The notes under the pieces are model-generated. The model saw nothing but the letters and a program-made list of their open reading frames with translations, was not told the DNA's origin and did not search any database. From Lachnospiraceae bacterium (GTDB lineage: Bacteria > Bacillota > Clostridia > Lachnospirales > Lachnospiraceae), in contig JAFUNC010000002.1 in the NCBI GenBank assembly GCA_017473115.1, positions 62,001-126,000 of the forward strand: DNA of 64,000 nucleotides, written 5' to 3'. The translations under genes were made by a program, and so were the position numbers. Below are positions 9,998 through 24,546 of this stretch, one piece after another; within the stretch, counting starts at the first letter, position 1, and each line of letters begins with the position of its first letter.

Positions 9998-12900
9998 ATG
10001 AAGAAGGTTATCATTATTGGAGCGGGACCGGCAGGTATTACGGCAGGATACGAGCTTTTGAAGCAGTCCAATGAATATGAGGTGACAATTCTGGAGGAAT
10101 CGCCTTATGCCGGCGGTATTTCGAGAACTGAAGTTTATAACGGACATCGTATGGATATTGGCGGACACCGTTTCTTCTCCAAATCGCAGGAGGTAAATGA
10201 CTGGTGGGCGCAGATTATGCCCATGCAGGGAGCACCGGCGTATGATGATGATAAATTAAACAGGGATGTACCTTTGGAGCAAGGCGGTCCGGACCCGGCA
10301 AAAGAAGACCGTGTTATGTTGAATCGTAGTCGTATTTCGCATATTTATTACAAGAGAAAATTCTTTGAATATCCGGTTAAAATGAATGCGGATACAATTA
10401 AAAACATGGGATTCGGAACCACTATGCAGGCCGGATTCAGTTATCTCGGAAGTATGGTTGCTAAGAAGCCCGTGAACAGTTTGGAGAATTTTTATATCAA
10501 TCAGTTTGGCAGAAAATTGTACTCCATGTTCTTCGAAGGATATACCGAGAAACTTTGGGGACGTCATCCCAGAGATATCGATCCTTCCTGGGGAGCACAG
10601 AGAACAAAAGGTTTATCCATTACGGAAATTGTAAAAGATGCAACCCGTAAGGCATTACATAAAGAGGCAAAGGAAGTGAATACTTCCCTGATTGGTGCTT
10701 TTAAATATCCGAAATTGGGACCCGGGCAGTTGTGGGAATGCGCAGCGGCTGATTTTGAGAAAATGGGTGGTTCCATCCATTATAATTGTCGTGTAATCCG
10801 TATCAATACAGAAGGCGACAAGGTAGACAGTGTTACCTGCGCGGTAGATGGTATTGTAATTGAAGAAAAAGCAGATATCGTCATTTCTTCCATGCCCATC
10901 AAAGACCTGATCATCGGTATGAACAATGTGCCTGCAAATGTACAGGAAGTGGCACGTAAATTGCCGTATCGTGATTTTGTTACTGTTGGTCTTTTGGTGC
11001 CGAAGTTGCGTATCAGCAACACTACATATATGAGGACCCTTGGAAATGTCATTCCGGACACCTGGATTTATGTACAGGATCCCGGAATTAAAATGGGACG
11101 TATTCAGATTTTTAACAACTGGTCACCGTACCTTGTTGAGAATCCCGAGAAGACGGTGTGGGTCGGATTGGAATACTTCTGTAATGAGGGCGACCGTTAT
11201 TGGAATATGACAGACGAAGAGTGGATACAGTTTGCAACCAAAGAACTGGTACATATGGGTATTTTATCCGAAAGTACCAAGGTGCTGGATGCACATAAAT
11301 TGGCTGTAAAGAAAGCGTATCCCGCATATTTCGATACTTATTCACGCTTTGATGAAGTGCGTACATATTTGGATGGTTTTGAGAATTTGTATTGTGTAGG
11401 ACGAAACGGACAGCACAGATATAACAATATGGACCATTCCATGATTACTTCTTTCGAAGCGGTTAAAAACATTATTAACGGCGTAAAAGATAAGTCCAAT
11501 ATCTGGAATGTAAATACGGAGCAGGAATATCACGAAGAGAAGGCGGCACCGGCAGATGATAAAGCAACAGAAGTAAAGCCTTCTGTCACTTCTGCGCCCG
11601 TACCTCCCGTTAAACAGGAAAGCAAAACCACACCGGAGCCTTCACAGGCAACGTCGGCAACTGTTACATCTGTAAAAGCAGAAGAACCTGTGCAAAAAGA
11701 AGAGGAACTGCAGGCAGCCGTGAAGGCAGTCCCTGCGCCGCCTGTCAGAAAGCAACTTCGCAGAAATCCCGTGCCGAAAGCGGCTGAGGATATGGCAGTT
11801 GCAGGAGCCGTTGCCGTTGCGGAAAGTTCAAATGTTTCAGCAATGGTTCAGGAGACGACACAGGTATCTGAGCAGACAGCAGAAACAACACAGGTTATTG
11901 TGCCCAATGCAATGCCGGAGCCGGAAATCCATGAGTCAAAATCCAGAAGTATTTGGGATGATGTGGCTTATGCAGAAGCAACGGCAGAGGTTAAGACCGC
12001 GCCGATTCGCTTTAAAACCGTGGAAGAGGCTCATGCAGCAGTGAAGGGAACCACAGTTGAAAAGGTATCTGTTCACAAGGATGAAAAGAAAGTTGATGAA
12101 GTAAAAACGGATGTTGTAGAAACAGTGGCAGAAACTGTGAAAGAAACGACAGAACCGGAGAAAAAGGACTCTGTGGAAATAAAAGAAGAAAAACCGAAGA
12201 AAACCACAAGAGGAAGAAAAAAAGAACAGGTCAAGAATGACAGTGATGCTAAAGTTTCAGAGGATAAAAAGTCAGAGACTGTGACGTCAGAAGAAGTAAA
12301 AGAGGATAAGCCGAAGAAAACCGGCAGAACCGGAAGAAAGAAAACGGTGAAGGAGCAAGGGGTAACGGAGGCTGTCGAGACAATTGCGGAGGAAGTGAAA
12401 ACAGAATCTGTACCGGAACAGGTTATCGAAGAAACGAAAAAGGAAGATGTTTTAGAACCGGTTGCTGAAGCGACGAAAACAGAAGTGATGGCAGAGACGG
12501 TTGATGAAGTTTCTGAAACAAAAGCAGAGAATGCAACAGCAGTTGATGAAAGCGTAAAAGAAGAAAAACCTAAAAAAGCAACCCGAACAAGACGGAAGAA
12601 AGCAGTTGAGACACAGGATAATACTGAAGTCAAAGAAACTGTTTCCGTGGCGGAAGAAAAAGCCGAAGCGATAACAGAAACTTTGGAAACTGCGGAAGAA
12701 GTTGCAGCAGAAAAAATGGAAGCGGTTGAAGAAGTTAAGGTTGTAACTGCGGAAATTTTGGAAGAAACTAAGGTTGAAAGTGTTGAAATGGTTGAGAATG
12801 CCGAGGCTGATGCTGAGGAATTATCAGAAGAAGTCAAGGCTGAAGCAATGAAGGCAACGGAAGAGGTCGAGGTTGAGGCAATAAAGACTATGGAAGAAGC

Positions 12901-13204
12901 CAAGGTTGAAGCAGTAGAGGAAACGGAAGAAATCAAGACAGAAGTTGCAGAAACAGCAGAGGAACCGAAAAGACCTTCCCGCTCGACATCCGGAAAAACC
13001 ATTGCCGGAAGAAGTTCATCACGCAGAGTATCCGATAGTAGGAATAATACAAACCGGAGAAAAGCGGAAGACAATAAAAAACCGGTTTCCAATATAGGAA
13101 AGCAGGCTGTTGTAGGCTCTATGAAGGGAACGGTTATTAAGTCCAATGTCATTCAGAAGAAACCGGAAGAAAATAAAAAAGCGGCAGGCAGCGGACGAAG
13201 ATAA
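9998..13204 (+). CDS. FAD-dependent amine-oxidase-like flavoprotein with long charged repetitive tail
   Basis: A 1068-residue protein in two parts. Residues 1 to ~505 are an NAD(P)/FAD-dependent oxidoreductase of the protoporphyrinogen oxidase/UDP-galactopyranose mutase-like group found in polysaccharide loci: dinucleotide motif GAGPAG at 8-13, [15 protein letters not shown], and YNNMDHSM near 485. Residues ~510-1068 are low complexity, rich in Glu, Ala, Lys, Val and Thr, with three copies of a basic KPKK-x2-R-x2-RKK element at about 732, 771 and 857, and a basic Ser/Arg-rich end ([13 protein letters not shown]). Family members end near residue 500. AGGAG precedes the ATG. The tail has no signal peptide or membrane segment; its role is unknown. 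Confidence 0.85.
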
Positions 13205-13228: not shown

Positions 13229-14572
13229 ATGTCACAGGAACAGGATAGAGCGCTCATATTAGATGAGGTAAAAAAGTATTATGAAAAATATCATGTAACA
13301 ACAAAGGATTTTTCGGCAGGCGACAGAATTCCTTATGCATCCAGAGTGTATGATAGTGAGGAAATGACGAATCTCGTGGACAGTTGTTTGGATTTTTGGC
13401 TGACATCCGGCAGATATACGGATGAATTTGAAAAAGAACTTGCCAAATATTTAGATGTACGATTCTGTTCTTTGGTAAACTCCGGTTCATCAGCCAATTT
13501 GTTGGCTTTTATGGCATTGACGTCTCCTCTGTTAAAAGAGCGAAGTATTCAAAGAGGCGATGAGGTGATTACCGTAGCAGCAGGATTTCCTACAACAGTA
13601 GCCCCCATTATTCAGTTTGGTGCGGTTCCGGTTTTTGTGGATATTTCCATTCCTTCCTTGAATATTGATGTTTCACAGTTGGAGCAGGCCTATTCATCGA
13701 AAACTAAGGCTGTTATGTTGGCTCATACTTTGGGTAATCCTTTTAATGTTGTTGCAGTAAAAGAGTTTTGTGACAAACATAATCTTTGGTTAATTGAAGA
13801 TAATTGTGATGCACTCGGAACGGAAGTGCTCATAAATGGTGAGTGGAAAAAGACCGGCACCATAGGTGATATCGGAACGTCAAGTTTTTATCCGCCTCAT
13901 CATATGACTATGGGCGAAGGCGGCGCAGTTTATACCAACAATTCTCTTTTGAATAAAATTATTCGTTCCATGCGCGATTGGGGTAGGGAATGCAGTTGCC
14001 CTTCCGGTGTTGATAATTTGTGCGGACATCGTTTTGACGGACAGTTTGGAGAATTACCGGTCGGATATGACCATAAATATGTATATTCGCATCTCGGTTA
14101 CAATTTGAAGGCTACGGATATGCAGGCTGCAATTGGGTGTGCACAGATTAAGAAAATGCCTGAATTTGCAAGACGCAGAAGAGAGAATTTTGCGTTTTTA
14201 CATAATGAATTAAAAGATTTGGATGCGTTTTTCTTTTTGCCGAAAGCCGAGGAGGGGACGAATCCGAGTTGGTTCGGCTTCCCGATTACCTGTAAAGAAG
14301 GCGTGGACCGCGGTATGGTTGTGAAAGCACTGGAAGATCATAAAGTGCAGACCAGAATGCTGTTTGCGGGTAATCTGATTAAGCATCCTTGTTTTACCAA
14401 TATGCCGGATGGCGGAAGAAGTCTTTATCGTAAGGTGGGCGAATTGAACAATACAGATGTTGCCATGGAGCGTACTTTCTGGATTGGCGTGTATCCCGGA
14501 ATGACGGAAGAGAAACTGAAGTTTATGGCGAAGTGTATCAGGGATGGTATAAAAAGTATTCCAAAGCAGTAA
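13229..14572 (+). CDS. rfbH: CDP-4-keto-6-deoxyglucose 3-dehydratase (E1), RfbH/DdhC
   Basis: A 447-residue fold-type I enzyme of the DegT/DnrJ/EryC1 family that uses PMP and a 2Fe-2S cluster to remove the C-3 hydroxyl of CDP-4-keto-6-deoxyglucose. The usual PLP-binding Lys is replaced by His: the loop reads SSFYPPHHMTMGEGGA with His224/225. The cluster cysteines match the E1 pattern: Cys193, Cys255, Cys257, Cys265 (C-x61-C-x-C-x7-C, the last three in ECSCPSGVDNLCG). These features distinguish it from ordinary sugar aminotransferases. CDP-glucose genes rfbF and rfbG lie 9 kb downstream in the same locus. The partner reductase E3 (RfbI/AscD) was not found in the window. Confidence 0.93.
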   Translation: MSQEQDRALILDEVKKYYEKYHVTTKDFSAGDRIPYASRVYDSEEMTNLVDSCLDFWLTSGRYTDEFEKELAKYLDVRFCSLVNSGSSANLLAFMALTSPLLKERSIQRGDEVITVAAGFPTTVAPIIQFGAVPVFVDISIPSLNIDVSQLEQAYSSKTKAVMLAHTLGNPFNVVAVKEFCDKHNLWLIEDNCDALGTEVLINGEWKKTGTIGDIGTSSFYPPHHMTMGEGGAVYTNNSLLNKIIRSMRDWGRECSCPSGVDNLCGHRFDGQFGELPVGYDHKYVYSHLGYNLKATDMQAAIGCAQIKKMPEFARRRRENFAFLHNELKDLDAFFFLPKAEEGTNPSWFGFPITCKEGVDRGMVVKALEDHKVQTRMLFAGNLIKHPCFTNMPDGGRSLYRKVGELNNTDVAMERTFWIGVYPGMTEEKLKFMAKCIRDGIKSIPKQ

Positions 14573-14593
14573 TTCAAGAGGAGCATTATAATA

Positions 14594-16204
14594 ATGGGTG
14601 CAATAAATTTATTGGACTGTACTTTGAGAGATGGCGGTTATCTAAACGATTGGGAATATGGTTATGATGAAATAATTTCTGTTTTTGAACGTTTGATAAG
14701 TGCCGGTATTGATATTATTGAAGTCGGTTTTATAGATGAGCGAAGAAGTTACGATAAAAACAGAACCATATTTCCTGATGTGGTATCCATTAATCGTACA
14801 TTTCACGGAATAGAAAAAAAGAATGCCATGGTAGTAGGTATGATTGATTACGGAACTTGCTCCATAGATAAGGTGATTCCACAAAAGGAAAGTTTTTTGG
14901 ATGGCATTCGTGTAATTTTTAAAAAGCATATCATGAACGATGCCTTGGATTTTTGCGCGGAATTAAAGGCACTGGGATATCATGTTTTTGTACAGGCGGT
15001 ATCGATTACCAGTTATGATGATGAGGAATTTGCAAAACTTATGGAATTGGTAAATGCGGTGGAGCCTTATGCTTTTTCTATTGTCGATACCTATGGTCTT
15101 TTGCATAAAAATCAGTTGATTCATTACTTCGAAATGGCAAATGACTCGCTGAAAGATAATATTTCTTTGGGATACCACTCACACAATAATTTTCAATTAG
15201 GTTATGCCAATTGTATTGAACTGGCAGAGAAGCAGATTGAGAGAAATTTATTATTGGACGGTTCGTTGCACGGCATGGGAAAAGGTGCCGGAAATACACC
15301 GATTGAGTTACTGGCCATGTATATGCGTGAAAATTATGGTGCGGATTATCATTTGAGTCAGTTGTTAGAAGCGATTGATGTTACGATACAGGATTGTTAT
15401 CGTGTTACACCATGGGGATATAGCCTAAAATTCTTTATTGCGGCATCTAATGATTGCCATCCGAATTATGTAGCGGCATTAACGGAGAAAAAGAAATTGT
15501 CGGTAAAATCCATCAATGAAATTTTGGCGACTATACCAAAAGAGAAAAAACTTCTTTATGATGGTGACTTGATTGAAGCATTGTATCAGGATTATCAGGC
15601 AATTGCCTGCGATGACAAAGATGATTTATGTAAACTGAATTCTGAGTGGAAAAATCGTAATCTTTTATTGATTGGTCCGGGCAGAAGAGCAGAAGAAACC
15701 GATCGGATTAATCAATATAAAGCAGAAAATGATGCGCTGGTTGTTTCGGTTAATTTTATTCCGGAAGGTATAGCACCGGATTATGTGTTTATGAGCAATG
15801 CCAAACGATATGTAAAAATGGTGGGAAAACTATCGGAAGTGTTAGAGGAAGCGTCTAATATCAAAACGATTGCTACGTCCAACGTAACCAGATCAAAAGG
15901 AAGATTTGAGTATGTTTTGGCATATGAAACACTTTTGGATGAAGAAGCGTTGATTAAAGATAATCCTTTATTAATGTTGTTGAAGTTATGTAAACAATTT
16001 GAAGTTAAGTCCGTTGCATTGGCGGGATTTGACGGATATGAAAAATGCGTCGACACAAATTACATCAACCCCAATATGGAATATGTATTCAGTAAAGAAA
16101 AAGCCGACGTATTAAACGAAGATGCGGCAGAGGGGATTCAGAGGGTAAAATTGTCACATCCTGTATTTTTTGTCACAGAGAGTTTATACGAAAGGTATTT
16201 ATAA
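14594..16204 (+). CDS. HMGL/4-hydroxy-2-oxovalerate aldolase-like enzyme with extra C-terminal domain
   Basis: A 536-residue protein. Residues 1 to ~300 form a pyruvate-type metal-dependent aldolase TIM barrel: DCTLRDGG at 8-15 and metal-binding HSHNN with His195 and His197, followed by DGSLHGMGKGAGNTP. Residues ~345-536 are a separate domain beginning NRNLLLIGPGRRAEETDRI, then VVSVNFIPEGIAPDYVFMSN, which looks loosely like the NGPS-type nucleotide or DUF115/GT42-like folds; that link is weak. It lies between rfbH and the TPP enzyme with gaps of 21 and 4 bp, so it probably supplies or consumes a 2-keto acid or aldehyde in sugar synthesis. Two in-frame TTATGTAAAC copies are inside. Confidence 0.82.
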   Translation: MGAINLLDCTLRDGGYLNDWEYGYDEIISVFERLISAGIDIIEVGFIDERRSYDKNRTIFPDVVSINRTFHGIEKKNAMVVGMIDYGTCSIDKVIPQKESFLDGIRVIFKKHIMNDALDFCAELKALGYHVFVQAVSITSYDDEEFAKLMELVNAVEPYAFSIVDTYGLLHKNQLIHYFEMANDSLKDNISLGYHSHNNFQLGYANCIELAEKQIERNLLLDGSLHGMGKGAGNTPIELLAMYMRENYGADYHLSQLLEAIDVTIQDCYRVTPWGYSLKFFIAASNDCHPNYVAALTEKKKLSVKSINEILATIPKEKKLLYDGDLIEALYQDYQAIACDDKDDLCKLNSEWKNRNLLLIGPGRRAEETDRINQYKAENDALVVSVNFIPEGIAPDYVFMSNAKRYVKMVGKLSEVLEEASNIKTIATSNVTRSKGRFEYVLAYETLLDEEALIKDNPLLMLLKLCKQFEVKSVALAGFDGYEKCVDTNYINPNMEYVFSKEKADVLNEDAAEGIQRVKLSHPVFFVTESLYERYL

Positions 16205-16208
16205 ATAA

Positions 16209-18146
16209 ATGAAAAAGAAAGTTGCTCAGGTTATTGCAGATTTTATGGTAGAAAAAGGCGTTAGTCATGTTTTTACGGTGACTGGCGGAGGAGCAATGCA
16301 TTTAAATGATGCATTTGGGCATCATTCCGAGTTGACATGTATTTATAATCACCATGAGCAGGCGTGTTCTCTTGCGGCAGAAGGATATGCCCGTCACAGC
16401 GGAAAAATTGCCTGTGTATGTGTAACCAGCGGGCCGGGAGGCACGAATGCAATCACCGGCGTTTTAGGCGGTTGGCAGGACTCGATTCCGATGTTTGTGG
16501 TATCCGGACAGGTAAAGAGAATCACAACAACCGGTTATATGGATGTATCGTTGCGTCAGTTGGGAGATCAGGAGTTTCAAATAACTGATTGCGTGGCAAA
16601 TATGACCAAATATGCAGTTATGTTAACCGATGCAAATAAGATATTATATCATTTGGAAAAAGCATGGTTTTTGGCGAATCACGGACGCAAGGGACCGGTA
16701 TGGTTGGATATCCCTCTGGATATTCAGGCTGCAGAGGTGGAAACGGATTCGTTATGTCATTTTAACGAAAGTGAGTATGATTCATATATTCAGCAATGCA
16801 ATCAAGAGAATTACATAACGGATAAGCAAGAAAGTACAGAAGGATTTCATTGTGATTTTTGGGAAGAAACGGTTCAGTCTGAAAACGTAAAATTGCAGAA
16901 AGTATTATCGGCAGATGCGCCCGTATGGAAGGATGAGTATATTGAACAGGTTATATCGGCCTTAAAAAAAGCGAAGCGTCCTGTGATTCTTGCAGGCACG
17001 GGAATTCGTCTTGCCGATGCGTATTGTGAATTCCTGGAATTGGTTGAACAGTTAAAAATTCCTGTAGTTACGGCATGGAATGCTCATGATTTGGTATGGG
17101 CGGAACATCCGTATGATTGCGGACGTCCCGGAACTGTCGGAACCAGAGGCGGTAATTTTGTGGTTCAAAATGCGGATTTGGTTTTGATTCTCGGCTGTCG
17201 TATGAATATAAGGATGATTAGTTATCAATGGGAGAATTTTGCAAAAGATGCTCTTAAGATTTGGGTTGAAATCGACAAAAACGAATTATGTAAACCTACA
17301 ATCAAGCCTGATATTCCGATTCATGCGGATGTAAAAGCATTTTTACTTCATATGAATCAAGAACTCAAAGCAGAAGCATTATCATTAGAAAATATGCAGT
17401 CAGACTGGCTTATGTGGTGTAAGGAAGTGAATCAAAAATATCCGGCTGTAAGACCGGAATATTATGATTCCGTCAAACTGAATCCGTACGTTTTCATTGA
17501 TAAGTTAACGCAGCAGATGTCGGCAGACACCTCGGTTGTTTGCGGAAACGGAAGCGCTTGCGTGATTACTTTCCAGGCTGCCAAAATTAAGAAGGGGCAG
17601 AGATATTTTACGAATTCCGGTTGTGCGGCCATGGGATATGGATTTCCTGCGGCTATCGGTGTTGCAGTTCAGGAGAATGCCCGTGAGGTTGTTTGTATAG
17701 ACGGAGACGGCAGTTTCCAGATGAATCTGCAGGAATTGCAAACTGTGGTACAAAATAAATTACCTTTAAAAATTGTGATTTTGAATAATAATGGGTATCA
17801 TTCCATCCGTCAAACCCAGACAAATTTGTTTAAGGGAAGAGAATTGGTTGGTGTAGAGGCAGAAAGCGGTGTAAGTTTTCCTAAGTTTGAAAAAATAGCA
17901 TATGCCTATGAAATTCCCTATGTAAAAATTGAAAGTATAAAAGATTGTGAAGACAAATTAAAAGATGCATTGGATATGGAAGGTCCGGTTTTGATTGAAG
18001 CCGTAGTGGATGAGGGACAAAATTTTGAACCGAAATTGTCATCAAAAGTATTACCGGACGGAACAATGGTTTCTCCGCCCATAGATGATATGTATCCTTT
18101 CCTTGAACGTGAGGAATATGAAAACAATAAGATGATTAGTAAATGA
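16209..18146 (+). CDS. Acetolactate synthase-like TPP enzyme, YerE-like
   Basis: A 645-residue thiamine diphosphate enzyme. The PYR domain holds the cofactor-activating Glu50 in NHHEQA and the TSGPGGTNAITG loop; the TPP-binding motif GDGSFQMN (near 498-505) ends at NNNGYHSI. Length exceeds typical acetolactate synthase (~560) because of a linker near residues 185-235 rich in Glu and Gln. No regulatory small subunit gene is nearby and the gene sits among CDP-dideoxysugar genes, so a role in branched-chain valine synthesis is unlikely. The best comparison is YerE, which decarboxylates pyruvate and adds the two-carbon unit to C-4 of CDP-3,6-dideoxy-4-ketoglucose. Substrate here is inferred from context. 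Confidence 0.82.
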   Translation: MKKKVAQVIADFMVEKGVSHVFTVTGGGAMHLNDAFGHHSELTCIYNHHEQACSLAAEGYARHSGKIACVCVTSGPGGTNAITGVLGGWQDSIPMFVVSGQVKRITTTGYMDVSLRQLGDQEFQITDCVANMTKYAVMLTDANKILYHLEKAWFLANHGRKGPVWLDIPLDIQAAEVETDSLCHFNESEYDSYIQQCNQENYITDKQESTEGFHCDFWEETVQSENVKLQKVLSADAPVWKDEYIEQVISALKKAKRPVILAGTGIRLADAYCEFLELVEQLKIPVVTAWNAHDLVWAEHPYDCGRPGTVGTRGGNFVVQNADLVLILGCRMNIRMISYQWENFAKDALKIWVEIDKNELCKPTIKPDIPIHADVKAFLLHMNQELKAEALSLENMQSDWLMWCKEVNQKYPAVRPEYYDSVKLNPYVFIDKLTQQMSADTSVVCGNGSACVITFQAAKIKKGQRYFTNSGCAAMGYGFPAAIGVAVQENAREVVCIDGDGSFQMNLQELQTVVQNKLPLKIVILNNNGYHSIRQTQTNLFKGRELVGVEAESGVSFPKFEKIAYAYEIPYVKIESIKDCEDKLKDALDMEGPVLIEAVVDEGQNFEPKLSSKVLPDGTMVSPPIDDMYPFLEREEYENNKMISK

Positions 18147-18154
18147 GGTATCCG

Positions 18155-19078
18155 ATGCTTGATGGGAAGAAAAAGGTTATACTTACGGGAGCAACAGGAG
18201 CAATCGGTATTGCGATTGTAAAACGTTGTTATGAGTTGAATTGGGATGTTTGTGCTGTTGTTCGCCCGGGAAGTAACAGGAATCGCTCATTTTTAGAACG
18301 ATATGGTGCGTATATCATTGAATGTGATTTGGCAGAACTCGGACGATTACGAAAGAATGAAGTCTGTCAGAATGCAGATTACTTTTTACATCTTGGTTGG
18401 GGCGGAACATTTGGAGAACAACGTAATGATGAGGCATTACAGTTGAAAAATGCGGAATATGCCTTGGAAGCATGTGAAACTGCTTCGGCATTAGGCTGCG
18501 AGGTATTTCTGTTTGCAGGCAGTCAGGCTGAGTTTGGAAGAGTAGAGGGATTATTAAACGAAAATATAATTCCGCATCCGGAAAACGCTTATGGCAAAGC
18601 AAAGTTAAAAGCGGGATTTGAGACCAGGAAAGCATGTGAAGCAAACGGATTACGTCATATATATACGCGTATTTTAAGTGTGTATGGTCCCGGCGACGGA
18701 ACGGAAACCATGGTAAGTTCTACTGTTCGTAAATTACGTGACGGTATTTCTCCGCAGTTTACTCTTGGAGAGCAAATGTGGGATTATTTATACAGTGATG
18801 ATGCGGCAGAGGCATTGTTGCTGTTATGTCAGTTTGGAAAGAGAAATAAAATATATTGTTTGGGCAGCGGAAAAGCCAGACCGTTATGCGAATACATCGA
18901 AACAATCGGACGGATTGTGAATCCTGATATTCTGTTGGGAATAGGGGAATTGCCTTATCGTGAGAATCAAGTTATGTATTTGTGTGCAGATATTTCGGAT
19001 TTGACAGGCGACACCGGTTTTGTGCCCAAGGTTTCCTTTGAAGAGGGAATCAAAAAAGTAATGGAAGCAAATGAATAA
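18155..19078 (+). CDS. NAD(P)-dependent extended SDR reductase/epimerase
   Basis: A 307-residue extended short-chain dehydrogenase: TGATGAIG nucleotide-binding loop near the N-terminus, FLFAGSQAEFG strand and the YGKAK active-site Tyr-Lys pair, then RILSVYGPGDG. It is placed after the TPP enzyme, where YerF-type reductases reduce the branch ketone of the yersiniose precursor; that role is inferred. The start at 18155 has TGAGG six bases upstream; ATG 18143 overlaps the preceding stop by four bases but lacks a clear ribosome binding site. Both give the same domain. Confidence 0.85.
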   Translation: MLDGKKKVILTGATGAIGIAIVKRCYELNWDVCAVVRPGSNRNRSFLERYGAYIIECDLAELGRLRKNEVCQNADYFLHLGWGGTFGEQRNDEALQLKNAEYALEACETASALGCEVFLFAGSQAEFGRVEGLLNENIIPHPENAYGKAKLKAGFETRKACEANGLRHIYTRILSVYGPGDGTETMVSSTVRKLRDGISPQFTLGEQMWDYLYSDDAAEALLLLCQFGKRNKIYCLGSGKARPLCEYIETIGRIVNPDILLGIGELPYRENQVMYLCADISDLTGDTGFVPKVSFEEGIKKVMEANE

Positions 19079-19093
19079 TAAGAAGGCATAATC

Positions 19094-19576
19094 ATGGAAA
19101 CTGTAGTTCATAAGAAAAAAACGCTCATTCAATTTATAAAATTTGGAATGGTAGGTTTAAGCAATACCTTGCTTTCTTTTTTGATTTATAATTTTTGTTA
19201 CCATGTATGCGGTTTTTCTTATCATATTTCTAATATTTTTGGTTTTGTAATCAGCGTATTAAATGCGTATTTGTTACAGAATAAGTTTGTGTTTAAACAG
19301 GATGAAAGTGAGAAGAAGCGTGTATGGTGGAAGGCATTGATTAAAACCTATGTATCGTATGCTTTTACCGGATTGATTTTGACTGAAATTTTATTGGTTT
19401 TATGGATGGATGTTATTGAAATTCAGAATATATTTGAAAATATTTCGTGGCTGAACCGCTGGTTTGGCGATAATTTTACATCTTATGATTTTGCAATCAC
19501 AATTGCACCAATTATTAATTTATTTATTACCGTGCCCCTTAATTTTGTGTTGAATAAATTATGGGCCTATAAGTAA
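19094..19576 (+). CDS. GtrA family membrane protein, probable polyprenyl-phosphate-sugar flippase
   Basis: A 160-residue protein with four hydrophobic segments and the GtrA family N-terminus (FIKFGMVGLSNTLLSFLIY) and loop (NAYLLQNKFVF). GtrA proteins are thought to move polyprenyl-phosphate-linked sugars across the membrane. Fifteen bases separate it from the SDR gene and 22 from a GtrB-like glycosyltransferase, making the classical GtrA/GtrB pair. A terminal LNFVLNKLWAYK also fits the family. Confidence 0.9.
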   Translation: METVVHKKKTLIQFIKFGMVGLSNTLLSFLIYNFCYHVCGFSYHISNIFGFVISVLNAYLLQNKFVFKQDESEKKRVWWKALIKTYVSYAFTGLILTEILLVLWMDVIEIQNIFENISWLNRWFGDNFTSYDFAITIAPIINLFITVPLNFVLNKLWAYK

Positions 19577-19598
19577 AAATGCGGAAGGTGAAACACAG

Positions 19599-20543
19599 AT
19601 GAAAAAAATCAGCATTTTAATTCCTTGTTATAACGAAGAAGAAAACGTATATCCGATGAGTGAAGAAATCGTAAAGTTATTCGAGACACAGTTGAAGGAA
19701 TATGACTATGAATTGGTGTTTATCGATAATGATTCGAAGGATAAAACACGTATCTATTTGCGAGATATTTGCCAAAAGAACAAAAAGATTAAGGCTATTT
19801 TTAATGCGAGAAATTTTGGTCAGTTTAATTCACCATATCATGGCATTTTACAAACCACAGGTGATTGTACCATTTCTATGGTGTGTGATTTCCAGGATCC
19901 GATTGACTTAATTCCGCAATACATAAAAGAATGGGAAAACGGTTATAAAATCGTGATTGGAATTAAGGCAAAAAGTAAAGAGAATAAATTAATTTATCTC
20001 TTGAGAAGTTTGTATTATAAATTTGTTAAAAAGTTTTCGGATGTGGAGCAGATTGAACATTTTACAGGGTCCGGATTATATGATAAGGCGTTTGTGGATG
20101 TATTAAGGGATTTAAAAGATCCGAAACCCTTCTTGCGAGGTATTGTTGCGGAGTTGGGATTTAAACATAAAGAAATTATGTATGAGCAACCCTTAAGACG
20201 TGCGGGAAAAACACATAATAATTTCTTTACGCTATATGATGCAGCGATGTTAAGCATTACGTCCTACACCAAAGTAGGCTTGCGAATGGCAACGTTTATC
20301 GGCTTTTTAATGGGAATCGGCAGTTTCTTGGTAGGTTTGGTTTATTTTGTACTGAAATTGTTGATGTGGAATGATTTCCCTGCCGGTATGGCTCCTGTCT
20401 TAATCGGTATGTTTTTCTTGGAGTCGGTACAATTGTTTTTTATCGGTTTCATCGGAGAATATATTTTAAGCATTAACGAACGCAGTATGAACAGACCCTT
20501 GGTTGTAGAAGAGGAAAGAATCAATTTCGAGGACGGAAACTAA
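19599..20543 (+). CDS. GtrB-like polyprenyl-phosphate glycosyltransferase (GT2)
   Basis: A 314-residue family 2 glycosyltransferase: ISILIPCYNEEENV at the N-terminus, acidic metal/nucleotide motif DFQD at 97-100, and two C-terminal transmembrane segments (about 230-255 and 268-290) as in GtrB/DPM1-like enzymes that load a sugar onto undecaprenyl phosphate on the cytoplasmic face. GGAAGGTGA precedes the start. The locus makes CDP-sugars, so a CDP-dideoxysugar may be the donor in place of the usual UDP-glucose; this is inference. Confidence 0.9.
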   Translation: MKKISILIPCYNEEENVYPMSEEIVKLFETQLKEYDYELVFIDNDSKDKTRIYLRDICQKNKKIKAIFNARNFGQFNSPYHGILQTTGDCTISMVCDFQDPIDLIPQYIKEWENGYKIVIGIKAKSKENKLIYLLRSLYYKFVKKFSDVEQIEHFTGSGLYDKAFVDVLRDLKDPKPFLRGIVAELGFKHKEIMYEQPLRRAGKTHNNFFTLYDAAMLSITSYTKVGLRMATFIGFLMGIGSFLVGLVYFVLKLLMWNDFPAGMAPVLIGMFFLESVQLFFIGFIGEYILSINERSMNRPLVVEEERINFEDGN

Positions 20544-20544
20544 C

Positions 20545-21840
20545 ATGACTTCAAACAAGAAATTTATTTTTTTGAGTGTCTTTATTACAATTGGTTATGT
20601 GGCATTTTTTGTTTTTTCATATATTGCCCAAAAGATACTCGGATTTGAATATCCGGTGGGAAGTTTTCTTTTTAAATTAAATGAAGTTTTCTCGGATTTT
20701 TATGATATTAATACCATGTTATCAAATATGAGTCCGTATATTGAATATGATTCGTCTTATCCGCCGGTTGCATTGGTACTTGCAATACCCTTTGCTGTGT
20801 TGCAAAAGTATATCGGAATGATTGCATATCCTGTTATGGTACTGATATGTGTTGCTGTAATTTTTGTTTTTCAGTTTAAAATTATAAGAAAACATATTGA
20901 TCAGTTTTCCAGCGGAATGCTTGTGGCTGAAGTTTCAATTCCTTTGTTGGTAACAGCGCCTTTTATTTTTATGTTTGACCGCGGCAATTATCTGTTGCTG
21001 ACCATCACATTTTTTTATGCGTTTGTTTATTTTTATTATGTAAAATCCAATGATGTTTTGGCATCTGTTCTGTTGGCATTTATGATTGCAGGTAAAATTT
21101 ATCCGGCATTGTTATTGTTTTTATTCGTATTTGACAAGAAGTGGAAAAATTTATTTCTGACAGTCGGAGTTACAATCGGAATTACATTGCTTGGATTTTG
21201 CTTTTTCCAAGAAGGTTTTTTTGCTAATTTAGTTGCTTTTTTGGGAAATCTGTTTGATTTTGCAAGCGGGTCCGGTGATGAGGCTGCTAATGTATATTTT
21301 TCTGTGGGCTTAACCGCGTTGTTGAGATTTCCTTTTGTTGTCTGGAACGGCATTAAAATTCCTGAATGGTATCCGGTTGGGTATATTTATATCATTATTG
21401 CCGTGGTATTGGTGTTGTGGTCTTTCTGGAACTTACGGAAGGAGGAGAGCAGTTGGAAGAAGTTAATGATATTAACTGTTCTTATGGTTTTTTTAACTCC
21501 GAATTCATATATGTATAATTTGACTTATTTGTTGCCGGTAATGTTGATTTTTATTATTAAAGATGTTTCTGTGCAGAAATTTGAGAATTACTTATATGCC
21601 ATTTGTTTCGGGATTTTGAATATACCAAAAGCATATTATTATTTTAGTATTGATGATAAGTATGTGGATGTTCCGACCTATGCGATAGTATACAGTGAGG
21701 AATTAGGTGAATATGTACAATATGATTGGGTGTTTCCTAAGGATATGATTAGTATTCAGGTTTTGATAGATGGTTTTATATTATTCGGAATCATATTGTT
21801 TTACAATATATGTATGTCGAAGAAGAAAAAGAGGATTTAG
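20545..21840 (+). CDS. GT-C type membrane glycosyltransferase (DUF2029/GT87-like)
   Basis: A 431-residue protein with about ten transmembrane segments. The first external loop carries acidic residues followed by a proline motif (DFYDINTMLSN and YDSSYPPVALVLA), and MFDRGNYLLL occurs further on; these resemble DUF2029/GT87 polyprenol-phosphate-dependent enzymes that transfer sugars on the outer face. It begins one base after the GtrB-like gene, which fits the third component of a GtrA/GtrB/GtrC-like glycosylation system. Acceptor and sugar are unknown. Confidence 0.78.
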   Translation: MTSNKKFIFLSVFITIGYVAFFVFSYIAQKILGFEYPVGSFLFKLNEVFSDFYDINTMLSNMSPYIEYDSSYPPVALVLAIPFAVLQKYIGMIAYPVMVLICVAVIFVFQFKIIRKHIDQFSSGMLVAEVSIPLLVTAPFIFMFDRGNYLLLTITFFYAFVYFYYVKSNDVLASVLLAFMIAGKIYPALLLFLFVFDKKWKNLFLTVGVTIGITLLGFCFFQEGFFANLVAFLGNLFDFASGSGDEAANVYFSVGLTALLRFPFVVWNGIKIPEWYPVGYIYIIIAVVLVLWSFWNLRKEESSWKKLMILTVLMVFLTPNSYMYNLTYLLPVMLIFIIKDVSVQKFENYLYAICFGILNIPKAYYYFSIDDKYVDVPTYAIVYSEELGEYVQYDWVFPKDMISIQVLIDGFILFGIILFYNICMSKKKKRI

Positions 21841-21841
21841 T

Positions 21842-22678
21842 ATGAAAGTAATTATATTGGTGGGCGGCCTCCCCAGTACAATCAGTGATGTAAAAAGCGG
21901 TATTCCGAAACCTATGGCTGAAATAGGCGGCAGACCGTTAATCTGGCATATTATGAAACTTTATGCGCATTACGGCTTTCGCGATTTTATTGTTTGCGGC
22001 GGTTATAAGGTTAACATAATTAAGGAATATTTTAAAGATTTTTATATTTATCAATCTGATATTACAGTAGATTTGGCAAGTAATGAAATTACCATTCATA
22101 ACAAAAGAACCGAAGACTGGAAAGTTACGGTTGTGGATACCGGAGTAGAAGCCACTACCAGTGAACGTATTTTACAGGTAAAAGAGTTTATCGGAGACGA
22201 GGATTTCTTCGTGGCATACGGAGATTGTTTGTCGGATATCAATTTCGATGAGATGTTACGTCTTCATAAAGAACGAAATTCTTTTATTACAATGGCGGTA
22301 GCCAAACCTACGGGACGTCATTCGGTGTTATCCATCCGAGAGGATGATGTGTTGATGAGCAAGTATGGCGATAAGATAAATGAACATGCAGGAGATTTTT
22401 CAGCATCTTCAAACGCATTACAATGCGGTGAGAAGCGTTTGAATCAAGACGTTGCATGGGTAAATGCCAGTTGTTATATTTTCTCTCACAAAGCACTGGA
22501 GTCTTTGTCCGGCGAAGAGTTGAATGAAACTTTTATGGAAAAAATGGCTGAGAAAGAGAAGGTGCATATTTATCGCCATGAAGGGTTCTGGCGACCGGTT
22601 GAAACCATGCGTGACAGTGTGGCGCTGGAAGAAATGTGGGAAGAAACAAAAGCACCATGGAAGGTATGGGAGAAATAA
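21842..22678 (+). CDS. RfbF-like sugar-1-phosphate nucleotidyltransferase with altered signature
   Basis: A 278-residue paralogue of glucose-1-phosphate cytidylyltransferase. Conserved RfbF segments are present (KPMAEIGGRPLIWHIMKLY, VVDTGVE, AYGDCLSDI and the C-terminal GFWRP), but the triphosphate-binding loop reads GGLPSTISDV where RfbF enzymes have GG(L/K)GTR-like residues. It lacks the conserved Gly and basic residue there, so activity or specificity may differ. ATG 21842 has AGAGG upstream and begins the domain directly. Its stop abuts the ATG of the next gene, an intact RfbF, suggesting duplication and coupled translation. Confidence 0.8.
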   Translation: MKVIILVGGLPSTISDVKSGIPKPMAEIGGRPLIWHIMKLYAHYGFRDFIVCGGYKVNIIKEYFKDFYIYQSDITVDLASNEITIHNKRTEDWKVTVVDTGVEATTSERILQVKEFIGDEDFFVAYGDCLSDINFDEMLRLHKERNSFITMAVAKPTGRHSVLSIREDDVLMSKYGDKINEHAGDFSASSNALQCGEKRLNQDVAWVNASCYIFSHKALESLSGEELNETFMEKMAEKEKVHIYRHEGFWRPVETMRDSVALEEMWEETKAPWKVWEK

Positions 22679-23464
22679 ATGAAGGCAGTGATTCTTGTGG
22701 GCGGTAAAGGCAGCCGCATCAGTGAAGAGTCCCGTTTTAAACCGAAACCATTGGTCGAAATCGGGGGAAGACCGATTTTATGGCATATTATGAAATTGTA
22801 TTCTTTCTATGGAGTCAATGAATTTATTATTTGTTGCGGTTACAAGGGACATTTGATAAAAGAATATTTTGTAAATTATAAAAATACAAACCGTGTAAGC
22901 AATTATTGTTTAGGAAACATAAGTAGTGAACTTGATTTACATAATTGTACAGAAGAGCCGTTTAAAGTAACGTTGGTTGATACCGGTCTTGAGACATTAA
23001 CGGCAGGAAGACTTCAGAAAGTAAGGCAATATCTGGAGGGGGAAGAGGAGTTCTTTTTAACTTACGGTGATGGTGTCAGTGATGTGAATTTAGATGAGTT
23101 GCTGGCGTTTCATCGTGAGCAGGGAAAGTGTGTTACCATTACCACTTATCCGAAGGAAGAGCGTTTTGGCAGGTTGAAATTAAAAGAAAATCAAACTCAG
23201 GTAGAAAGTTTTCATGAAAAAACCAAGGCAGAGGCTTCGTTAATCAATGCCGGTTTTATGGTGATGAATAAGAATGTATTTGATTATCTTGGTGACGGAA
23301 GTGAAATGTTGGAAGACGGTCCTTTTGAGAAACTGTCTACAACAGGAGAAATGGCAGCGTTTACACACAAAGGCTTTTGGTCACCGATGGATACGCTTAA
23401 AGAGCAGATGTATTTGGATCATTTGTGTACTACAAACAGTGCTCCTTGGATGGTATGGAAGTGA
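22679..23464 (+). CDS. rfbF: Glucose-1-phosphate cytidylyltransferase
   Basis: A 261-residue nucleotidyltransferase making CDP-glucose from glucose-1-phosphate and CTP, the first step to CDP-dideoxyhexoses. Signature loop VGGKGSRISEES, then KPKPLVEIGGRPILWHIMK, FIICCGYKG, TYGDGVSD and the end HKGFWSPMDTLKEQ are typical of RfbF/DdhA. It starts directly after the stop of a diverged paralogue and is followed 8 bp later by rfbG. Confidence 0.93.
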   Translation: MKAVILVGGKGSRISEESRFKPKPLVEIGGRPILWHIMKLYSFYGVNEFIICCGYKGHLIKEYFVNYKNTNRVSNYCLGNISSELDLHNCTEEPFKVTLVDTGLETLTAGRLQKVRQYLEGEEEFFLTYGDGVSDVNLDELLAFHREQGKCVTITTYPKEERFGRLKLKENQTQVESFHEKTKAEASLINAGFMVMNKNVFDYLGDGSEMLEDGPFEKLSTTGEMAAFTHKGFWSPMDTLKEQMYLDHLCTTNSAPWMVWK

Positions 23465-23472
23465 GGTTGCGT

Positions 23473-24546
23473 ATGGATTTAAGTTTTTATAAAGGAAAAA
23501 AAGTTTTTATCACAGGACATACCGGATTTAAAGGGGCTTGGCTTTCGTTTATGTTATTGGAGGCCGGAGCAGAGGTAACAGGTTATTCTTTGGAGGCACC
23601 GACAGTTCCTTCACTATATAAGTTATGTAAACTGGCTAGGAGGATGGATTCCGTAATTGGAGATATCCGAGATTATCAGAATTTAAAGAAAACCTTCGAT
23701 AAGGCACAACCGGAGTTTGTGTTTCATTTAGCTGCTCAGCCCTTAGTGAGAGAATCATATATTACACCAAGGGAGACATACGAAACGAATGTAATGGGTA
23801 CAGTCAATATATTGGAATGCGTCAGAACTACCGATACGGTTAAGTCTGTGATTATTGTAACCACAGATAAGGTATATCGTAATGACAGCCGCGAAGAAGG
23901 ATATGTGGAAGAGGACATTTTAAACGGATTTGATCCGTATTCCAATTCTAAATCATGCGCGGATATTTTAACAAATAGTTATGTAAACTCGTTTTTAAAA
24001 GAACGTAATATACCGGTATCTGTTTTGCGTGCCGGAAATGTGATAGGCGGCGGAGATTTTGCGAAAGACAGATTGGTGCCGGATTGTTTTCGAGCCATTC
24101 GGACAAATGAAAAAGTGATTATCCGTAATCCAAATGCTACGCGCCCGTTCCAACATGTTATTGAGCCTTTGGTGGCATATCTGATGATTGCAAAAGAACA
24201 GATTGTGAAACCGGAATTAGCGGGTGCATATAATGTGGGACCGGATGAAAAGGATGTACAGAGTGTCAGTGATATGCTGATGCATTTTCAGACAATTTGG
24301 AATACCGGAGAATTTGGAAAGAATACTCCTTTCGATTGGATGTATACTGAGGAAAAAAATGCGCCGCATGAAGCGGCTATGCTTAGTTTGAATTGTGATA
24401 AAATAAAAAAGAATTTTAATTGGTCACCTAAATGGAATGCTTATGATGCAGTATATAAAAGCATAGAGTGGATGCAATATTATATGAAAGATAAAGATGT
24501 GAGCATCTGTATGCAAAAACAAATTAAGGAATATCTTGCGAAATAA
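23473..24546 (+). CDS. rfbG: CDP-glucose 4,6-dehydratase
   Basis: A 357-residue extended SDR converting CDP-glucose to CDP-4-keto-6-deoxyglucose, the substrate of RfbH. It has the nucleotide loop GHTGFKGAW, LAAQPLVRESY, TTDKVYRN and the catalytic DPYSNSKS Tyr/Lys pair, plus GNVIGGGDFAKDRL, all diagnostic of RfbG/DdhB. The start at 23473 has GAGG six bases upstream; an earlier in-frame start at 23425 would overlap rfbF. One TTATGTAAAC codes LCK near residue 51 and another YVN near 170. Confidence 0.93.
   Translation: MDLSFYKGKKVFITGHTGFKGAWLSFMLLEAGAEVTGYSLEAPTVPSLYKLCKLARRMDSVIGDIRDYQNLKKTFDKAQPEFVFHLAAQPLVRESYITPRETYETNVMGTVNILECVRTTDTVKSVIIVTTDKVYRNDSREEGYVEEDILNGFDPYSNSKSCADILTNSYVNSFLKERNIPVSVLRAGNVIGGGDFAKDRLVPDCFRAIRTNEKVIIRNPNATRPFQHVIEPLVAYLMIAKEQIVKPELAGAYNVGPDEKDVQSVSDMLMHFQTIWNTGEFGKNTPFDWMYTEEKNAPHEAAMLSLNCDKIKKNFNWSPKWNAYDAVYKSIEWMQYYMKDKDVSICMQKQIKEYLAK

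Follow-up and report, generated by a model that had tools for sequence, protein, structure and literature searches.

Here we describe a run of genes whose probable product is a cytidine diphosphate (CDP)-linked 3,6-dideoxyhexose bearing a long, hydroxylated C-4 branch, which would then enter lipid-linked glycosylation. The run lies at positions 13229-24546, on the + strand, of a 64,000-nucleotide stretch of DNA from a Lachnospiraceae bacterium (contig JAFUNC010000002.1, positions 62,001 to 126,000), the whole of which is called here the window. Judging by its genes, this operon would be most like the pathways of erwiniose and caryophyllose, with a distinct aldolase composed of two domains. Its members are the following, coordinates being those of the window.

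13229..14572, + strand: RfbH, CDP-4-keto-6-deoxyglucose 3-dehydrase (E1); 698 bits against NF011936 (cut-off 423), with the His and the cysteines.
14594..16204, + strand: HMGL-type pyruvate aldolase with an added C-terminal domain, 536 aa; the Pfam HMGL-like match covers residues 4-256 only.
15545..16204, + strand: C-terminal domain of this aldolase, with the fold of MptE/Maf/CstII/SteA.
16209..18146, + strand: YerE-like thiamine diphosphate (ThDP) enzyme, 645 aa; PF02776, PF00205 and PF02775, 395 bits with 8rph (JanthE), and trees.
18143..19078, + strand: extended short-chain dehydrogenase/reductase (SDR), proposed to reduce the ketone of the branch; PF01370, 110 bits.
19094..19576, + strand: GtrA-like membrane protein, proposed flippase; PF04138, 72 bits.
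19599..20543, + strand: GT2 glycosyltransferase, proposed to transfer from the CDP-sugar to undecaprenyl phosphate; PF00535.
20545..21840, + strand: GT87 glycosyltransferase, proposed to carry out the outside transfer; PF09594, 66 bits.
21842..22678, + strand: diverged cytidylyltransferase paralogue; TIGR02623, 266 bits (cut-off 300).
22679..23464, + strand: RfbF, glucose-1-phosphate cytidylyltransferase; TIGR02623, 324 bits (cut-off 300).
23473..24546, + strand: RfbG, CDP-glucose 4,6-dehydratase; TIGR02622, 436 bits (cut-off 278); its start is an ATG inside a longer, GTG-started open reading frame (ORF).

An earlier interpretation of this DNA, hereafter the sequence-only reading, had placed rfbF, rfbG, rfbH, the aldolase, the ThDP enzyme and the SDR in one apparent operon. 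Coordinates, strand and small gaps confirm it: all these genes are found in a single co-directional run, with intergenic distances of -4 to 24 bp from the gene upstream of rfbH through rfbG, the gap between the GT87 gene and the next one being 1 bp when the checked ATG at 21842 is used. The second cytidylyltransferase, the GtrA, GT2 and GT87 proteins and the C-terminal domain of the aldolase are members that it had not mentioned. The E1-type nature of RfbH also agrees with the sequence, where a His in SFYPPHH replaces the lysine that binds pyridoxal phosphate (PLP), and C193, C255, C257 and C265 are present (C-x-C-x7-C). Furthermore, the genome search that had been suggested for the rfbH-aldolase-ThDP-SDR block retrieved it, or near variants, from other Clostridia, and because this order recurs there the block is not a product of chance.

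According to the chemistry of their families, which are those seen here, RfbF and RfbG would form CDP-4-keto-6-deoxyglucose, from which RfbH would form CDP-3,6-dideoxy-4-ketoglucose by removal of the 3-OH, drawing electrons from a reductase outside the recognised genes of the run. The HMGL aldolase would then join pyruvate to an aldehyde, probably a phosphate in those loci with an adjoining HAD phosphatase gene, and the resulting 4-hydroxy-2-oxo acid would be a 3-deoxy-2-ulosonic acid; this role is proposed because of the fold, the motif, the gene context, the swapping of aldolases and the fusions described below. In turn, the YerE-like ThDP enzyme would decarboxylate the acid and attach the resulting acyl anion at the ketone of C-4, a type of reaction that has been seen in vitro for ErwE with a substrate analogue (PMC12247030; for this and the other papers cited, what is said here follows the passages available from each). 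The SDR would reduce the new ketone of the branch, and the predicted arrangement (C1'-OH, C2'-H2, C3'-OH) is that of the caryophyllose branch. Finally, as their families indicate, GT2, GtrA and GT87 would probably place the sugar on undecaprenyl phosphate, carry it across the membrane and transfer it on the outer side.

The evidence for a long branch comes first from the relatives of the ThDP enzyme. One genome per species (84,980 species) was scanned using an alignment of ThDP enzymes headed by JanthE, and the counts of ThDP loci given here are those of the 80 best among 586 confirmed places; the ThDP ORF was called in 73 of the 80, the other seven were excluded, and a contig end truncates several of the loci. 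On a 93-row tree made by a quick method and rooted on the genome's own acetolactate synthase, in which JanthE is the single characterised relative placed, the window enzyme belongs to a clade of 10 rows (SH-aLRT 99), 10/10 of which have the same aldolase. The same 10 rows come together, with support 95, on an 85-row tree built under a mixture model. (Locus L089 was dropped and ORFs below 480 residues were unused for the 85-row tree; for the 93-row tree L089, L060, L117, L064, L062, L133 and L088 were dropped and ORFs below 520 residues unused.) With L098 and L181 as its earliest branches the clade extends to 12 rows (support 97), and in these two an HpcH/HpaI-type protein and a HAD gene replace the HMGL aldolase (Pfam checked for L098 only). 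Throughout the 12 rows a pyruvate aldolase stands no more than two ORFs from the ThDP gene (12/12), accompanied by an SDR in 12/12, a GT2 in 11/12 and a HAD gene in 8/12. Because an unrelated aldolase family fills the same place, it is the aldol reaction itself that the ThDP enzyme would need, and this constitutes the strongest single argument.

Such constancy, with two unrelated families in one slot, speaks against a simpler pathway in which the ThDP enzyme, like YerE, takes pyruvate and builds a yersiniose-like sugar with a two-carbon branch, while the aldolase serves another product or supplies pyruvate. We consider this unlikely, though it deserves more weight than any other alternative. 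In its favor, loci L076, L078 and L116 show the order rfbF-rfbG-rfbH-ThDP-SDR-GT2 without a recognised aldolase, so the core works without one, and some aldolase-bearing and aldolase-free rows are neighbors on the tree. Some aldolase-free loci, such as these three, may be true two-carbon-branch pathways, and others may carry keto-acid enzymes outside the families searched.

In the wider set, a keto-acid-forming enzyme is encoded in the flank of 40 of the 73 loci, and in 34 of them no more than two ORFs from the ThDP gene. The kinds are diverse and their categories overlap. The window-type aldolase occurs in 13 loci; an HpcH/HpaI-type protein in 14 (L103 and L143 also have another kind; Pfam agrees in the four checked); a NeuB-like protein in eight (L112 also with an HMGL-type gene; Pfam agrees in the four checked); and a 4-hydroxy-2-oxovalerate aldolase together with an acetylating acetaldehyde dehydrogenase in six (L072-L075, L102 and L143, L075 also having the window type), where the NCBIfam cut-offs are exceeded by all the members checked, three dehydrogenases and two aldolases. 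Three other HMGL-type hits (L080, L082, L112) come without a detected C-terminal domain, two of them stopping at a contig end. From the pair of acetaldehyde dehydrogenase and aldolase one would expect a branch of four carbons and a sugar of 10, the size of erwiniose; the JanthE-like loci L071-L075 contain RfbF, RfbG and RfbH.

A second line of evidence starts from RfbH, whose loci were collected whether or not a ThDP gene was present: 341 Clostridia genomes gave 28, 369 Gammaproteobacteria gave 10 over the cut-off (four of 14 matches, under it, were left out) and 345 Bacteroidia gave 21 (the genome of L072, one of 22 matches, was left out). A pyruvate aldolase (HMGL or HpcH/HpaI) is present in 8/20 RfbH loci with a ThDP gene and in 0/39 without it (Fisher one-sided 5.7e-5); in seven of the eight, less than 700 bp separate it from the ThDP gene. 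It is the ThDP gene, and not RfbH alone, that the aldolases track, which again disfavors the two-carbon branch. When NeuB-like proteins are included, the figures become 3/3 vs 0/7 in Gammaproteobacteria and 12/20 vs 2/39 in all classes, the NeuB-like gene being contiguous, or almost so, with the ThDP gene in two loci (L204, L210) and distant from it in two others (L199, L226). Five loci (L041, L043, L044, L045, L062) entered as aldolase-centred stretches, in each of which the aldolase is at most 2.6 kb from rfbH; in the clostridial genomes G077, G241 and G329 RfbH lies apart from the aldolase-ThDP pair, and they were scored as lacking both. The ThDP genes of L221 and L222, nearer to the acetolactate synthase query, were first scored as absent; with these two rescored and the window left out, the result is 7/21 vs 0/37 (p 3.9e-4). 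Genomic evidence of both kinds (12/12 in the clade; 8/20 vs 0/39 here) thus supports the proposal of the sequence-only reading that the aldolase supplies a longer hydroxy-2-keto acid to the ThDP enzyme.

Away from ThDP genes, the same aldolase family keeps other company. Among 20 Clostridia loci anchored on the aldolase, nine have a ThDP gene, nine a gene similar to those of cytidine monophosphate (CMP)-ulosonate synthetases (L047, L048, L051-L053, L055-L058), none has both and two have neither; L059 and L060, near-copies, are both within the 20, and L050, where aldolase and cytidylyltransferase genes adjoin but the aldolase ORF is displaced by an overlapping ORF, is not. Because the family adjoins CMP-synthetase-like genes without a ThDP gene in 9/20 loci, a free keto acid is the most natural reading of its product, and the fusions in L075 and L061 count for the same role. 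This context suggests that elsewhere the family makes Kdo-like acids from pyruvate, not from phosphoenolpyruvate. None of the nine ThDP-paired loci (0/9) has a CMP-synthetase-like gene to consume the acid, a further point against a two-carbon branch.

These partnerships also bear on the possibility that the ThDP enzyme adds a short branch first and the aldolase lengthens it afterwards, the other role that had been imagined for the latter. The two genes do adjoin, and none of the results contradicts the idea directly; nevertheless, nothing found points to it, the family stands beside CMP-synthetase-like genes where there is no ThDP gene to precede it, and by family chemistry a final pyruvate aldol would leave a carboxylate and should take an aldehyde as acceptor, the product of the ThDP enzyme being a ketone. 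Late extension was rejected on these two grounds, the CMP-synthetase partnerships and the aldol chemistry, and we give it scarcely any weight.

The family also adjoins CMP-ulosonate-synthetase-like proteins, or is fused with them, at L070:9986-12988 and L075:14741-17068, and at L063:8766-10505 and L065:9413-11152 an HMGL aldolase domain is fused to an IspD-type cytidylyltransferase. On a plasmid of Desulfobaculum bizertense (L069:6846-11014), RfbH is followed by a two-piece transketolase and a protein 33% like the window aldolase over its first 334 residues; there, a ThDP enzyme of a different type occupies the same slot.

The ThDP enzyme of the window has all three TPP_enzyme domains, the GDG-NN motif and the catalytic Glu. 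JanthE (8rph) is its best match among solved structures, at 395 bits, the next being an acetolactate synthase at 238 bits, and identity is about 37% over the two JanthE pieces; the window enzyme keeps Y297, F564 and K567 of JanthE (8rph, 8rpi, 8rpj) and differs from it in the motif, GDG instead of CDG. JanthE, itself YerE-like, accepts keto acids of both short and long chain, among them 4-hydroxy-2-oxovalerate when paired with benzaldehyde (PMC12188165). On the trees the window enzyme falls inside the YerE-like rows, with the genome's own acetolactate synthase as the single outgroup. The assignment of the enzyme to the YerE-like group is therefore upheld by its best relative, by the tree and by the presence of a true acetolactate synthase elsewhere in the genome. 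That the gene might be an ordinary acetolactate synthase or housekeeping decarboxylase, lying in a polysaccharide operon by chance, is practically negligible as an explanation. It does match TIGR00118 over nearly its full length with 369 bits, but this is below the cut-off of 538, the separate synthase reaches 699 bits, JanthE is by far the better match, and rfbH is present in 37 of the 80 loci of relatives; the housekeeping synthase was rejected on the first three of these. When the ThDP enzyme was searched against plasmids, 1e-60 returned no match and 1e-30 returned 104 records; the 30 listed among these show 29-31% identity and are called acetolactate synthases where annotated. Relative to L041-L045, the enzyme carries an insertion of about 40 residues at residues about 190-240 (645 vs 606 aa); that of L140 has 639 aa.

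Characterised systems give the proposed chemistry its models. YerE, which acts on the same acceptor CDP-sugar in the synthesis of yersiniose A and is likewise followed by a reductase, is limited to pyruvate and 2-oxobutyrate, pyruvate being preferred, and thus transfers at most a C3 unit. ErwE of Pectobacterium atrosepticum, which forms erwiniose, couples hydroxylated 2-oxo acids to CDP-4-keto-3,6-dideoxyglucose, as proposed for the window enzyme; it does not use pyruvate or acetaldehyde, again at odds with a two-carbon branch, and its donors are longer and functionalised, 4-hydroxy-2-oxobutanoate, -pentanoate and -hexanoate being examples. The donor preference of the caryophyllose enzyme MMAR_2332 of Mycobacterium marinum is similar (PMC12247030). 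Because ErwE and MMAR_2332 use hydroxylated 2-oxo acids, yersiniose, chosen as the closest model in the sequence-only reading, has to give way to these two, to which the window enzyme is likened here by their published descriptions. The suggestion of an undescribed larger branch stands in part: genomics favor a long branch, but such branches are already known, and the principle of longer hydroxylated keto-acid donors is already published for both enzymes.

Erwiniose is a 10-carbon branched sugar (PMC8657720), a size that by our arithmetic equals pyruvate plus acetaldehyde minus CO2 plus a hexose; in comparison, the window aldolase belongs to a different subfamily. Caryophyllose is 3,6-dideoxy-4-C-[D-altro-1,3,4,5-tetrahydroxyhexyl]-D-xylo-hexopyranose (PMC5706390), and its branch, with a C1' hydroxyl, a C2' methylene and a C3' hydroxyl, would fit a pyruvate aldol reaction followed by decarboxylative addition and reduction. 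It sits on lipooligosaccharide, whereas the window sugar is probably routed through GT2, GtrA and GT87. The literature searched comprised few subscription journals, and the aldolases may already be described; within it we did not find a clostridial version of the long-donor pathway, an aldolase with a C-terminal domain of sialyltransferase/MptE fold, its partnership with either a ThDP gene or a CMP-ulosonate synthetase but never both, or a probable lipid-linked export branch for such a sugar. The passages available from the M. marinum and glycan literature likewise gave no aldolase for caryophyllose, and the mentions of aldolases in those of PMC12247030 concern other carboligations.

The aldolase itself has the RD and HxH motifs and the barrel fold, as in the aldolases of TIGR03217. 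Its C-terminal domain, of about 200 residues, has no Pfam match, and no clear family emerged even when Pfam hits were accepted to E 1. The search with the fold of the whole protein was filled with barrel matches, and the domain was therefore folded separately; in a VIA-align comparison it shares the sialyltransferase/MptE-like fold of MptE/HPPK, Maf, CstII and SteA. Likeness in sequence to this fold group is weak (PF01973 in 3/22 members, best E 0.0044; 9hmz, E 0.0023).

Several points weigh against the long-branch pathway proposed here. The aldolase reaches only 70 bits against TIGR03217 (cut-off 286), and three residues past the RD Asp it has a Tyr, as do at least 90% of aldolase group A2, at a position that is His in all four 4-hydroxy-2-oxovalerate aldolases aligned. 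No acetylating acetaldehyde dehydrogenase was found in the window's genome, which is 85% complete. The aldolase differs in these respects from 4-hydroxy-2-oxovalerate aldolase (1nvm) and from the N-terminal domain of BVU_2661 (3dxi), as well as by its extra C-terminal domain, and the candidate of a bona fide 4-hydroxy-2-oxovalerate aldolase fed by such a dehydrogenase was rejected on them. Furthermore, there is no HAD gene in the window's run, and no source of the aldehyde is apparent. In the ThDP enzyme, the JanthE pocket residues V121, Y268, P293 and H494 are D, V, R and Q. As for the surveys, no recognised keto-acid enzyme flanks the ThDP gene in 33 of the 73 YerE-like loci, and 15 of these 33 have rfbH; L071, nearest to JanthE on the tree, is also without one, and the aldolase label takes 10 changes on the 93-row tree. 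The counts of the RfbH control are of loci and not of independent events: if four loci of the same genus are additionally collapsed, the rescored figure falls to 4/18 vs 0/37 (p 0.009). Because the counts by class, with vs without a ThDP gene, are 7/14 vs 0/14 in Clostridia, 1/3 vs 0/7 in Gammaproteobacteria and 0/3 vs 0/18 in Bacteroidia, the signal is mostly clostridial; in L205, the sole gammaproteobacterial case, the aldolase is 10.4 kb from the ThDP gene, and three of the 14 clostridial loci without a ThDP gene (L182, L192, L194) belong to genomes that hold an aldolase-ThDP pair elsewhere. Finally, the window's run has no E3-type reductase, and none was detected at 60 bits or more, with the E3 of L072 as query, in the window or in the other 27 clostridial RfbH loci.

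Because no E3 gene was detected near any of these 28 RfbH genes, the clostridial E1 enzymes may draw their electrons from elsewhere. E3 genes are present in L072, L073, L074, L143, L147, L222, L224 and L226. The order E3-rfbF-rfbG-SDR-ThDP-rfbH in L222 and L226 resembles what we take to be that of the yersiniose genes; these two group apart from the window on the tree and have no keto-acid enzyme adjoining the ThDP gene.

The fate of the sugar after branching can be considered at two levels. On the one hand, later enzymes might convert the branch beyond a simple polyhydroxyalkyl chain, for instance by ring closure, an outcome that seems very unlikely. Related loci do add a dehydroquinate-synthase-like gene (10 of the 80 anchored on ThDP), and the window has, adjoining rfbF, its unexplained second glucose-1-phosphate cytidylyltransferase-like gene, below the family cut-off; however, none of the 10 run proteins scanned (0/10) matches the dehydroquinate synthase family. 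On the other hand, the adjacent genes at 19094-21840 for GT2, GtrA and GT87 (GT-C) make up a three-component glycosylation set, and such a set argues that the long-branched sugar probably goes to a lipid-linked, outside-acting transfer. The GT2 is related to the PgfS and ArnC models, below their cut-offs, and is 62-75% identical to its counterparts in L041-L046, more than the ThDP enzyme is.

Taken jointly, these elements lead us to a broader and more tentative scheme, possible rather than probable. A YerE-like core would be served by interchangeable keto-acid modules (HMGL, HpcH/HpaI, acetaldehyde dehydrogenase with aldolase, NeuB-like) that set the branch; the C-terminal domain of the window aldolase would bind the cytidine nucleotide sugar, bringing together aldolase, CDP-ketosugar and ThDP enzyme; the aldolase family would elsewhere make CMP-activated ulosonic acids from pyruvate and not from phosphoenolpyruvate; and a new long-branched dideoxysugar would be displayed on the surface of Clostridia. 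If true, the keto-acid gene adjoining the ThDP gene would allow the branch to be predicted, and many orphan glycan loci would become testable. Long-branched sugars would be present in Clostridia, new pairs of aldolase and ThDP enzyme would be at hand for chiral tertiary alcohols, and a function would be given to the aldolase family whose N-terminal domain (3dxi) was solved as a putative aldolase.

Two observations lie beside the pathway. A 3-dehydroquinate-synthase-like gene is located near a YerE-like ThDP gene in Bradyrhizobium canariense (L093:4280-11803), and also in L081, L142, L104, L077 and L097, with PF01761 and PF24621 shown for L093 and L097. L093 has rfbF and rfbG, and its genome gives no RfbH match at 1e-50; loci of this type could be a route to carbocyclic sugars such as bradyrhizose, for which the available passages of PMC4743980 name just a ligase and a dehydratase gene. 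In the window, a protein of 1068 residues encoded at 9998-13204 ends 24 bp upstream of rfbH and combines an N-terminal FAD amine-oxidase-like domain (PF01593) with a long tail rich in Glu, Lys and Ala; L140 has, in the same position, a protein of 974 residues with the same start.

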